64,000 bases of DNA, from positions 310,001-374,000 of the forward strand of contig NZ_FORP01000003.1 in assembly GCF_900114035.1 (NCBI RefSeq). Reading direction: 5' to 3'. The stretch comes from Amycolatopsis sacchari (GTDB taxonomy: Bacteria > Actinomycetota > Actinomycetes > Mycobacteriales > Pseudonocardiaceae). The notes beneath the pieces are model-generated. The model was not told where the DNA came from. It was given only the letters and a program-made list of their open reading frames with translations, and ran no database searches. The position numbers and the translations under genes are program-made. Position 1 is the stretch's first letter. Each line of letters begins with the position of its first letter. Below are positions 3,270-50,723 of the stretch, one piece after another.

Positions 3270-3500
3270 GCTCCGGCGACCGGCTCGGGCCGCGCGACCG
3301 GCTGGGGCGGGCGCGGCGAGCGGCTGGTGCAGGCCGCGCGACCGGTTGGCTAGCGCGCGGCGAGCGGCTGGCTGGAGCAGCGCGGCGACCGGCTCGGGCC
3401 GCGCGACCGACTCGCGCGGGCGCGGCGACCGGCTGGCTGGCGCGCCAGCCGCACGGCACAGCCGGTGCGTGCGCGAGCGAGCGGCGGACACGACCGCCGC
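3270..3500. repeat. degenerate GC-rich direct repeats in an intergenic stretch
   Basis: The 240-bp gap between rmlA and htpX contains no convincing gene. It is filled with imperfect direct repeats built on the words GCGCGACCGGCTGG and GCGGCGACCGGCT. The 22-nt stretch starting GCGACCGGCTCGGGCC recurs about 105 bp apart (near 3277 and 3382). Open frames through it on both strands are by-products of the composition. Similar but not identical degenerate repeats occur at 42.2 kb and 49.7 kb. Confidence 0.6.
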
Positions 3501-42189: not shown

Positions 42190-42440
42190 CAGTTGCGGCG
42201 AAGGCGGATGGGCCGCAGAGCCGTTGCGCCGGAGGCGGATGGGCTCCAAGCCGGATGCGCCGCAGAGGCGGTTGGGCCGCGAGGCGGATGGGTCGCAGAG
42301 GCGGTCGGCGCCGCGAGGCGGTTCGGCCTGGCCCGGCGGGGCCTGGCCCGGCCGGGGCGGTTGGACCGCAGAGGCGCCGGAGCCTCGAAGGCGATTGGGC
42401 CTGGTCCGGTTGGGCCACAGAGGCGGTGAGGCCCGCTCCG
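42190..42440. repeat. degenerate 31-bp GC-rich repeats
   Basis: Imperfect repeats built on GGCGGATGGGCCGCAGA; the phrase beginning at 42193 recurs near 42224 and 42255, giving a period of about 31 bp with internal 16-17 bp half units. No gene is supported here, although all frames stay open because of the composition. Confidence 0.65.
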
Positions 42441-42579: not shown

Positions 42580-42960
42580 GCCCTCTCGCCTTAGGCCCCC
42601 CACTCTGGCCTTGCCTCACCCGTTCCCTCTTCCCGGCCCACCCTGCCCCCGGCTCCCCGGCCCACTCCGGCCCAACTCCCCAGCTCACGATTCCCTGCCC
42701 CGCCTACCCCGCCCTTTCCTGACTATTGCCCCCGCTGCCAGGCCACTCCACCCATCCCGCACCCCGCACCCCGCACCCCGCACCCCGCACCCCGCACCCC
42801 GCACCCCGCACCCCAGGACCACCAAACCCAAACCCCACCAGCCACACCAGCCCCAAAAACCTCCCCCACCGTCCCATTCCCAGCATTCCCACCAGCCCCC
42901 TCACCCCCGCCACCCCCTCCCACCCCGAACAATCCACAACCCCTCCCCTCAATCCCCCAC
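42580..42960. other. C-rich, G-poor strand-asymmetric tract
   Basis: About 380 nt in which the plus strand is mostly C with A and T and has very few G, unlike any other non-coding part of the window. It contains the heptamer array at 42756-42810. No coding signal is seen. Such asymmetry is compatible with i-motif/G-quadruplex or triplex structures. Confidence 0.55.
42756..42810. repeat. tandem heptamer array (CCCCGCA x about 8; GGGGTGC on the minus strand)
   Basis: One partial and seven full, perfect copies of CCCCGCA. The minus strand therefore reads GGGGTGC repeated, with eight runs of three to four G separated by TGC, a textbook G-quadruplex-forming pattern. Perfect conservation suggests recent slippage or active maintenance. 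Confidence 0.9.
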
Positions 42961-48452: not shown

Positions 48453-48752
48453 CTAGTACTTCAGCAGGTTCGTGTCGTCGACGGAGGCCGAGCGGCGGGT
48501 GCGGAAGATGGCCATGATGATCGCCAGCCCGACCACGACCTCCGCGGCGGCGACGACCATCACGAAGAACGCCATCACCTGTCCGTCGAGGCTGCCGTTG
48601 ATGCGGGAGAACGTGACCAGCGACAGGTTCACCGCGTTGAGCATCAGCTCGATGCACATGAACACGACGATCGCGTTGCGCCGCACCAGCACGCCCACCG
48701 CACCGATGGAGAACAGCAGCGCGGACAGCAGCAGGTAGTAGGTGGGAGTCAC
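48453..48752 (-). CDS. nuoK: NADH-quinone oxidoreductase subunit K
   Basis: A 99-residue, three-helix subunit. The two conserved membrane glutamates of the E-channel are in [14 protein letters not shown] and [19 protein letters not shown] at 48752 has GGAGGAG 5 nt upstream and overlaps the nuoJ stop by 4 nt (GTGA). Confidence 0.96.
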
Positions 48753-49690
48753 TTCTTCTCCTCCGAACCGGTCAGCGCGGGCGCTTCCTCGCGCGCATCC
48801 GACCCGGCGGCACCCGCCGCACCGGCGCCCGCCTCCGCCGAACCCGCGCCCGGACCGGAGCCGGAGCCGGGATCGCCGTGCGTGCCCGCGGTCGAGCCGG
48901 TCAGCGCGTGGGCGTCCGGGTGCGGCTCCTTGCCCTCGACGCGCTTGCGTTCGGCTTCGAGCTGCGCGGTGGGGGTGGACTCGATGATCGCGGACAGGGA
49001 CTCCTGCGCCACCGTGCCGTCCGGCAGCAGCGCCGGGGTCATGACCGAGTGCGAGGTCGCGAAGACACCGGGGCCGGGCTTCGGCGAGATGCGCTCGTAC
49101 TCGCCGCGGAACCGGGCCTCCACGAGTTCCTTCTGCGTGCGACGGCTGCGCTTCTCGTGGAACGCCAGCACCATCGCGCCGAGCGCGGCGGTGATGAGCA
49201 GAGCCGACGTCAGCTCGAACGGGAACAGGTAGTCGGTGAAGATCATCCGGCCGAGCCCGCCGGGTGTGCCGTTGGGCGCGGGTGCCGGGGTCACGTTCGC
49301 CAGCGCGTTGATCAGGCCCGTGACGATCAGCCCGGCGATCCCGATACCGAGGATGCCCGCCCACAGCCGTTGTCCCCGCAAGACCTCGACCACGGAGTCG
49401 GAACTCTCGCGGCCGACGAGCATCAGCACGAACAGGAACAGCATCATGATCGCGCCGGTGTAGACGATGATCTGGGTGAAGCCCAGGAACGGCGCCTGCT
49501 GCACGAGGTACAGCACGCCGAGCGAGAACATCGTCATCGCGAGGAACAGTGCGGAGTGGACGGCGCTGCGCGCGAAGATCAGCCCCAGCGCCCCGAGCAA
49601 GGCGATCGGCCCGAGGATCCAGAACGCGACGGCCTCGCCGGTGGACGTGCTCTGGTCGACCGCCTGCGCCAGCACCAGTGAACTCAGCAT
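48749..49690 (-). CDS. nuoJ: NADH-quinone oxidoreductase subunit J
   Basis: A 313-residue membrane subunit. Five helices lie in the first about 170 residues, including [20 protein letters not shown] and [21 protein letters not shown], with the pi-bulge helix of the quinone-coupled mechanism. The remaining about 140 residues form a hydrophilic tail ending in an Ala/Gly/Ser-rich stretch ([20 protein letters not shown]), much longer than the Escherichia coli protein; such tails are known in actinobacterial NuoJ. ATG at 49690; its first bases overlap the end of the repeat ORF by 7 nt. Confidence 0.94.
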
Positions 49691-50160
49691 GCCGCCGCCT
49701 CCTCCTGCGAGATAGCCCTGCGCGAGGCCGCCCGGGCGGAAACCACCGAGCGCGAGACCGCCTCACCAGCGGGCACCAAGGGCGAGGCCGCCCCCGCCGG
49801 AACCGCCGCACGCGAGGCCGCCCTGGCCGGGACCACCGCGCGCGAGGCCACCGCACGAGAGGCCACCCCACCCGGAGCGACCGAGCACGAGGCCGCCCTG
49901 GCCAGAACCGCCGAACGCAAGACCGCCCCACCCGGAGCCACCGAGCGCGAGGGCGCCGTAGCCGGGACCACCGCACGCGAGACCGCCCTGGCCGGAACCA
50001 CCGCACGCACGACCGCCGCCTGCGAGGCCAACCCGGCCGAAACCACCGAGCGCGAGGCCGCCCCGGCCGAAACCACCAAGCGCGACGCCGCCTCACCGGA
50101 GCTGGCGGCCCGCGCCGGGACCCTCCGCGACACCGCGGCGGCCGGAACCGAGCCGGTCAT
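49684..50160 (-). CDS. decapeptide-repeat ORF inserted between nuoI and nuoJ
   Basis: A 158-codon frame that fits the operon exactly: its ATG (50160) overlaps the nuoI stop by ATGA and its stop overlaps the nuoJ start by 7 nt. Residues about 16-146 are tandem ten-residue repeats with the pattern S-R-x-V-V-P-A-x-A-A (for example [20 protein letters not shown]), plus two five-residue half units; the C-terminus is [13 protein letters not shown]. No signal peptide, membrane helix or known domain is seen. The composition is Ala/Val/Arg/Ser with no acidic residue in most repeats, so the protein would be very basic. Nuo operons usually have nuoI directly next to nuoJ. Real expression is unproven, and the opposite strand also has an open repetitive frame. 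Confidence 0.5.
49724..50113. repeat. tandem 30-bp repeat array (12 full units and two 15-bp half units)
   Basis: A 390-nt array with unit starts at 49724, 49754, 49784, 49814, (half at 49844), 49859, 49889, 49919, 49949, 49979, (half at 50009), 50024, 50054 and 50084. Most units start GAGGCCGCC or GAGACCGCC and end in CGCACGC, CGAGCGC or a close variant. Unit length is a multiple of three, so every frame repeats. There are no unique spacers, so it is not a CRISPR array. Confidence 0.9.
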
Positions 50161-50723
50161 GAGATGACCTCCTCGCGGGCCGTTTCCACCGTCTCGCCCG
50201 AGGGGACGCCGCGGCCGCGGGCCAGCTCCGGGCCGTTGACGTAGTAGTCCTGCTCGTCGTCGCCGAGGCGCATCGGGTGGGGCGGCTGCTCCATGCCCGG
50301 CAGCAGCGGCGCCAGCAGATCCTCCTTGGTGTAGATCAGCCGCTGGCGGTCGTCGTCGGCGAGCTCGTAGAAGTTGATCATCGTCAGGGAGCGCGTCGGG
50401 CAGGCCTCGATGCACAGGCCGCAGCCGATGCACCTGAGGTAGTTGATCTGGTAGTCCTTGCCGTACCGCTCACCGGGCGAGTACCGCGCGTCCTCGGTGT
50501 TGTCGCCGCCCTCGACGAAGATCGCGTCCGCCGGGCACGCCCACGCGCACAGCTCGCAGCCGACGCACTTCTCCAGCCCGTCCGGGTGCCGGTTGAGCTG
50601 GTGCCGCCCGTGGTACCGCGGCGCGGCCGGCGCACCGGCCTCCGGGTACTCCTCCGTCGCCACCTTCTTGAACATCATCCCGAAGGTGACGCCAAAGCCC
50701 TTGATCGGATCAAACAGTCCCAT
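50157..50723 (-). CDS. nuoI: NADH-quinone oxidoreductase subunit I
   Basis: A 188-residue ferredoxin-like subunit carrying clusters N6a and N6b. The two C-x2-C-x2-C-x3-C motifs are [12 protein letters not shown] (Cys53, 56, 59, 63) and [12 protein letters not shown] (Cys98, 101, 104, 108). It passes electrons from NuoG to NuoB. The start overlaps the nuoH end by 14 nt, and the stop overlaps the repeat ORF by ATGA rather than nuoJ. Confidence 0.97.

Follow-up and report, generated by a model that had tools for sequence, protein, structure and literature searches.

Why should an open reading frame built largely of decapeptide repeats fit exactly between nuoI and nuoJ, two neighbouring genes of the complex I operon? 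Such a frame lies on the minus strand of the window, by which we mean the whole stretch of 64,000 nucleotides from Amycolatopsis sacchari that was analysed. The reading we favour, with a probability of about 0.78, is that it would be a neutral spacer cistron that relays ribosomes from nuoI to nuoJ, and that it was probably born by duplication of the junction and lengthened by repeat expansion. The features concerned, in the order in which ribosomes would meet them, are listed below.

50157..50723, minus strand: nuoI, an open reading frame (ORF) with two 4Fe-4S motifs
50167..50174, minus strand: Shine-Dalgarno-like GAGGAGGT within the nuoI 3' end, for the spacer ORF start (from the sequence)
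50157..50160, minus strand: ATGA, the overlap of the nuoI stop with the spacer ORF start (from the sequence)
49684..50160, minus strand: the spacer cistron (ORFX), 158 codons plus stop (from ORF analysis)
49720..50089, minus strand: 30-bp tandem repeat array encoding decapeptide units SR(S/A)VVPA(G/R)A(A/V)
49698..49706, minus strand: Shine-Dalgarno-like AGGAGGAGG within the spacer ORF 3' end, before nuoJ (from the sequence)
49684..49690, minus strand: ATGCTGA, the 7-nt overlap of the nuoJ start with the spacer ORF stop (from the sequence)
48749..49690, minus strand: nuoJ, its start shifted downstream relative to the directly overlapping state

The spacer ORF runs from an ATG at 50160-50158 to a TGA at 49686-49684 and encodes 158 aa, with the nuoI TGA at 50159-50157 and the nuoJ ATG at 49690-49688, all on the minus strand. 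The 477-nt frame is therefore as the sequence-only reading had described it, including its coordinates, its ATGA overlap with the nuoI stop and its 7-nt overlap with the nuoJ start. Tandem Repeats Finder reports three 30-bp arrays, at 49720-49849 (4.3 copies), 49848-50017 (5.7) and 50022-50089 (2.3), which total ~12.3 copies with 0% indels in each, as well as overlapping rows for the same array at periods of 15, 45, 60, 105 and 165 (0-4% indels). The in-frame array claimed earlier is borne out, but its 12 full units are not: parsing the ORF, in which the 30-bp repeats are in frame, gives 11 full decapeptide units plus part units.

Several other frames of the G+C-rich repeat are likewise open, and a shuffled insert of the same length is open in the bridging frame with P ~0.45. 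The window ORF alone is thus no better than chance, and the evidence has to be comparative. The multiple-of-three structure and the half units, from which selection for frame had been argued, are weak as an argument from one genome but become a strong one once relatives are added.

Some other low-complexity sequence in the window may be recorded here. The C-terminus of NuoJ (48749-48950) is a Gly/Ala/Ser/Glu tail of low complexity, and the matches of relatives mostly end near residue 265. The long gap past the end of the nuo operon contains, at 42192-42358 and 42756-42814, G+C-rich repeats of ragged structure (periods 15-33, 5-10% indels) together with a perfect (CCCGCAC)8.4 array. An imperfect 22-bp array of 8 copies, with 16% indels, occupies 3274-3445 and is intergenic by a crude gene call.

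The nuoI-nuoJ junction in Amycolatopsis and its family

The two genes had been said to be usually adjacent, and across the Pseudonocardiaceae they overlap directly in 116 of 120 loci, by the lenient criterion of a nuoJ-frame start between -40 and +2 nt from the nuoI stop. These loci comprise 80 named and 40 unnamed ones, with some genomes entered twice and three of them being members of the genus. The four that do not overlap are from A. tucumanensis (a genus member), Qaidamihabitans albus (twice) and G035. Outside the genus, the insert is a mini-ORF of 16 aa in Q. albus and of 14 aa, found by eye, in G035; both overlap their neighbours at both ends and are apparently independent in origin.

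The genus set consists of 19 Amycolatopsis genomes, including that of the window (G000) and its sister (G005). nuoI was matched in all 19, with a best match of 93-100% in each, and the nearest named relative of nuoJ is that of A. alkalitolerans, at 92% in the best segment, the window's own record possibly having been left out. The nuoI-nuoJ distance is -4 in three genomes (A. alkalitolerans, G004; A. taiwanensis, G013; and G011) and 70-574 nt in the other 16. In the direct overlap state, nuoJ begins at the A of the nuoI-stop ATGA. A tree built from nine further Nuo proteins (4620 columns) places G011 and A. taiwanensis outside the clade that holds all inserts, with A. alkalitolerans nested inside it, which suggests one gain of the insert and one reversal. 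Since the support for this clade is 73, the insert may also have been gained several times independently. A. alkalitolerans and G002 each have, in addition, another nuoI-nuoJ pair, whose nuoI is ~65% identical and whose two genes overlap directly, by 4 nt.

Comparison of this junction among relatives, as the sequence-only reading had proposed, reveals that every insert is bridged. All 16 span the distance from the nuoI stop to the nuoJ start, 13 as a single ORF of 25-194 aa and three (G006, G009 and G015) as two chained ORFs of 41 and 27 aa linked by another ATGA. The single-ORF inserts have 12 distinct lengths, all 1 mod 3, and the two-ORF inserts are 198 nt long, or 0 mod 3, as would follow if each overlap adds 2 mod 3. 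ATGA is found at the nuoI stop in all 16 genomes, and at the other end the overlap between the last spacer stop and the nuoJ start measures 4 nt in 11 and 7 nt in five. The motif GGAGG precedes the spacer ORF within the nuoI end in 14 of the 16 and stands just before nuoJ in 15, the exception there being G002 with GGGGGTG. The last nuoI codon is TCA, GGA or CAA, A-ending types that make up 2-3% of nuo codons, as counted in four genomes; this ending is partly inherited, and direct overlap requires it too.

Frameshifted repeats in close relatives, named beforehand as the finding that would speak against frame selection, were seen in none of the 18 relatives checked. The 13 single-ORF inserts contain no stops in the bridging frame, as against 16 and 13 in the two remaining sense frames, a count that leaves out the three two-ORF inserts (one stop per frame). 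At ~75% G+C, a single insert would be open by chance with P 0.25-0.88, and the product over the 13 is only 10^-3.8. The genomes are related, and the 16 inserts are therefore not 16 independent events.

Bridged inserts at other junctions and in ordinary gaps

A scan of the same contig (C28) found two further junctions of this kind, tsaB-rimI and imuA'-imuB, with TsaB and ImuA' identified by NCBIfam and rimI and imuB named by eye. Their inserts in the window genome are as follows.

G000 C28:136416-136770, minus strand: tsaB-rimI insert of 354 nt with two chained ORFs (44 and 76 aa) and a 131-bp tandem duplication (98%)
G000 C28:86912-87288, minus strand: imuA'-imuB insert of 376 nt with a 127-aa bridging ORF that holds decayed copies of the imuA' 3' end

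Direct overlap of tsaB and rimI occurs in 15 of 19 genomes, and the four inserts are all bridged, one of them by two ORFs. For imuA'-imuB, a count that leaves out G011 (contig end), five of 18 genomes overlap directly and 13 carry an insert; all 13 are bridged when an end overlap of up to 20 nt is allowed, a limit raised from 10 after the result, as nine spacers overlap by 13 nt. nuoG and nuoH overlap in 17 of 19 genomes, and the inserts of 82 nt in G005 and 157 nt in G002 are bridged by ORFs of 29 and 54 aa, though in G002 a GTG at -11 in the nuoH frame would permit another reading. Once the genome of discovery is omitted for each junction, 31 of 31 inserts bridge; the genomes being related, these trials are not independent.

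The alternative that survives best is a neutral insertion, in which the open frame merely results from high G+C and from a repeat unit whose length is a multiple of three, with no selection on frame at all. It draws on the rarity of stops at this base composition, as reflected in the single-insert values above, and on repeat periods divisible by 3 being common on the contig. Bridged gaps overall are also at the chance level: 9 of 104 gaps of 40-699 nt on C28 are bridged, with 8.0 expected from shuffles, and among gaps of 200-699 nt there are 4 bridged versus ~3.2/30 in shuffles. Bridging as such is not enriched on the contig, and most short bridged gaps there are probably due to chance.

We nevertheless consider a purely neutral insertion unlikely. 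At nuoI-nuoJ, all 16 inserts bridge with an overlap at both ends even though their other frames carry stops, and in the three inserts whose length falls in another class a second ATGA overlap restores the bridge. Arrays in noncoding parts of the window, moreover, are ragged (22 nt, 16% indels; 31/16/33/17 nt, 5-10% indels). Ordinary gaps were compared in two genome pairs, G009/G015 and G000/G005, over 400 kb per pair with gene calls from a crude script, and their length differences are a multiple of 3 in just 35 of 112 cases: in G009/G015, 8 of 34 non-codirectional gaps and, among unbridged codirectional ones, 15 of 41; in G000/G005, 12 of 37 gaps.

Bridged gaps were followed in the same two pairs. 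In G009/G015, with the imuA'-imuB pair left out, seven of eight are of equal length in both genomes and hence uninformative, and the remaining gap (42/43 nt) is bridged in just one of the two. G000/G005 have eight gaps bridged in both, with length differences that are all multiples of 3 except at tsaB-rimI (two ORFs versus one), and two gaps (61/118 and 99/100) that are bridged in one genome and plainly gapped in the other. Pairs that overlap in one of these genomes and are interrupted in the other include nuoG-nuoH and a 19-nt gap, both bridged. A counterexample is the pair of tsaE and an alcohol-dehydrogenase-like gene, with a 4-nt overlap in G000 and 259 unbridged nt in G005. These two genes look functionally unrelated, which would fit the coupling view, but the argument is made after the fact. 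In the nuo operon itself, nuoK and nuoL are separated by untranslated gaps of 10-91 nt; as these are tolerated, coupling is not needed at every junction.

Peptide evolution and alternative functions

The second alternative is that the peptide matters: the ORF could encode a basic, disordered and very fast-evolving repeat protein, acting as an accessory subunit or regulator of complex I. Proteins of low complexity that evolve fast exist, this one is co-encoded with complex I in a frame that is open, and the window ORF has 19 K+R versus 4 D+E, with K+R at least equal to D+E in all 16 genus spacer ORFs. The sequence-only reading had likewise offered, as one of its branches, a new basic repeat protein translated together with complex I, and this branch finds no support. 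The window ORF has no detectable protein relative in the other 18 genus genomes, including the sister G005, whose nuoI protein is 100% identical, and Pfam returned no family at E <= 1 for the three of 16 spacer ORFs tested. Sister species do not match, lengths range widely as given above, three genomes have two ORFs, the spacer has been lost in A. alkalitolerans from within the insert clade, and similar ORFs occur at the unrelated gene pairs tsaB-rimI and imuA'-imuB. The turnover is illustrated by G017, which carries a 406-nt single ORF; its near relatives G009 and G015 have the 198-nt double ORFs, and the nuoI of G017 differs from theirs at 10-12 third positions only.

Substitution patterns are consistent with this. 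The pN/pS of spacer ORFs is 2.6 and 2.3 for G009/G015, 1.07 and 0.75 for G006/G009, 0.65 and 0.76 for G006/G015, and 5.5 for G008/G018, values that rest on few substitutions (7-24 changes per comparison); nuoI in the same close pairs gives 0-0.15. Over this range of 0.65-5.5, and with these small counts, no purifying selection on amino acids was found in the spacer ORFs. Among the 11 repeat units of the window ORF pN/pS is 1.15, and for imuA'-imuB spacers it is 1.18, 0.63, 1.02 and 0.87. Third-position GC is 0.58-0.88 in the spacer ORFs versus 0.82-0.96 in nuoI and nuoJ, and GC by codon position is unlike that of normal genes. We judge a functional protein to be very unlikely. Since all 16 frames are open and pN/pS is near 1, selection appears to keep the reading frame, not the peptide. 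This agrees with the branch that had been preferred from the start, selection for frame, in that the genus inserts are open and overlap both neighbours and the peptide changes as if it were neutral.

Expression tuning is the third alternative, in which the insert lowers or delays the membrane-arm genes nuoJ-N relative to nuoA-I, or holds a nuoJ promoter or RNA element. The nuoI-nuoJ junction is the boundary before the membrane-arm block, and insert length there differs strongly between species. A precedent is the MIRU region of senX3-regX3, reported in the cited part of PMC4213456 to drive senX3-independent regX3 expression. Yet tuning is the least probable of the three, as no sequence is conserved apart from the insert ends, a scan of 49600-50300 (sigma-70-like type only) yielded neither promoter nor terminator, and RNA folding at the two window junctions is nothing unusual (z +1.72 and +0.66).

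Other candidates were tried and rejected. A plus-strand gene would be open in the window, but the antisense frame has stops in five of the 16 genomes (G002, G003, G008, G014 and G016). An N-terminal extension of nuoJ is contradicted by two stops in the nuoJ frame within the window insert; certain other members of the family do have nuoJ extended in frame. Enrichment of G by codon phase is a weak coding signal, with phase 1 highest in 10 of 16 and phase 3 in six. As for a dispersed repeat family, the window's own genome returns only the query (E <= 0.001; 40 of 248 candidates scored), and among the 19 genomes protein matches occur only in its own.

A candidate origin in junction duplication, and related systems

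Several inserts at the other junctions can be recognised from their sequences as tandem duplications of the place where stop and start meet. In G003, the tsaB-rimI spacer consists of a copied rimI 5' end (E 6.5e-30) that passes into a copied tsaB 3' end (E 7e-21); copies of the tsaB 3' end are also present in this spacer in G005 and G000. The nuoG-nuoH spacer of G005, a young-looking insert, repeats the final 30 nt of nuoG exactly, just ahead of nuoH. For imuA'-imuB, a match at E <= 0.01 to the imuA' 3' end is seen in 11 of 13 spacers and to the imuB 5' end in one, matches to which shared low complexity may contribute. For nuoI-nuoJ, four of 16 spacers match the junction at E <= 0.01, with a best E of 3e-5, and the window spacer retains no trace of a junction copy at this threshold. 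The spacer ends (REEVR, REVAGC) resemble the nuoI end (REEVIS), but this may reflect just the Shine-Dalgarno sequence. Local duplication of the junction would explain the better preserved spacers, in which no mobile element ends were seen, and from these other junctions we infer the same origin at nuoI-nuoJ.

In the spacer-cistron reading, the first step at nuoI-nuoJ would be the one shown at other junctions, a tandem duplication where stop and start overlap, which leaves the order geneA - ATGA - (geneB 5' copy fused to geneA 3' copy) - ATGA - geneB. A copy whose length is 2 mod 3 forms an ORF that bridges the gap, and duplicating the junction once more in this way gives two chained ORFs. The spacer ORF would then drift and grow by in-frame repeat expansion, by 30-bp units in the window, the peptide itself being irrelevant. 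Any stop or frameshift in the spacer would uncouple nuoJ and the genes behind it, through lost termination-reinitiation and through Rho polarity on untranslated RNA.

We infer that nuoI, the spacer and nuoJ are translationally coupled. In the cited part of one study on E. coli and Haloferax, coupling is almost lost across gaps of ~20-38 nt, and it needs no more of the upstream gene than its last 15 nt (PMC10666635); untranslated RNA is described in a passage of another paper as inviting Rho (PMC12548453). On these grounds an untranslated insert of 70-574 nt should harm nuoJ-N, and a bridging ORF would avoid such harm.

If correct, this would be a natural case of translational coupling in which selection acts purely on the reading frame and can be separated from protein function. 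An arithmetic rule would also apply: each chained overlap adds 2 mod 3, so that a gap of 2 mod 3 goes with no spacer ORF, one of 1 mod 3 with a single spacer ORF and one of 0 mod 3 with two. The junctions would provide a concrete route for the birth of orphan ORFs inside operons and a natural series of spacers, 25-194 aa long, for coupling studies, and they would caution against labelling such ORFs complex-I-associated proteins. A wider claim, on which we would take even odds, is that overlapping stop/start junctions generate orphan ORFs. A junction duplication of 2 mod 3 would be a ready-made translated spacer that coupling keeps open as its sequence runs free, and many lineage-specific operon 'genes' of these actinobacteria would serve to relay ribosomes, or as raw material from which new proteins arise, and would not be functional proteins.

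Literature searches joining nuoI, nuoJ and Amycolatopsis, or 'mini-cistron' with coupling and Shine-Dalgarno, found nothing. Among the matches listed, and in the parts of them considered, the one prior account recognised of junction duplication or spacer ORFs is a passage on MIRUs. According to that passage (PMC12548453, on Supply et al. 1997), MIRUs are mobile repeats that insert at start codons, with an ORF of their own coupled at -4 to the gene, and are thought to keep downstream expression with minimal impact. By analogy, they would be the nearest relatives in function of the nuoI-nuoJ spacers, where an overlap of the -4 type joins the insert ORF to the next gene in all 16 genomes. MIRUs, however, form one short dispersed family said to be mobile, whereas the Amycolatopsis spacers are unrelated between species and, where traceable, local copies. 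Their sizes differ as well, with MIRU units of 77 and 53 bp at senX3-regX3 in the cited part of PMC4213456, against 30-bp units in the window and genus spacers of 70-574 nt.

Three other systems, each described here from parts of the cited papers, share elements of this arrangement. Bicistronic designs place a short cistron upstream of a gene; the 3' end of this cistron holds the Shine-Dalgarno sequence for that gene, and its stop overlaps the start. They are man-made with a fixed 17-aa leader (PMC5995908); the present spacers are natural, 25-194 aa long, hypervariable and mid-operon. ORF-11, ORF-17 and ORF-18 of the integron site attI1 are likewise small ORFs that feed ribosomes to the next gene. 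They are 11-18 aa long, at a fixed site and with no overlap chain (PMC8876359), unlike the putative relay between ancestrally overlapping genes considered here. Finally, ATGA and TGATG overlapping pairs show the signals that the spacer has at each of its ends, and termination-reinitiation is the mechanism presumed in both cases (PMC6728339, PMC10666635). They consist of two functional genes, whereas in the window a cistron without a conserved product lies between two genes, and the overlapping stop/start typical of such pairs is found at both of its ends, as ATGA at nuoI and ATGCTGA at nuoJ.
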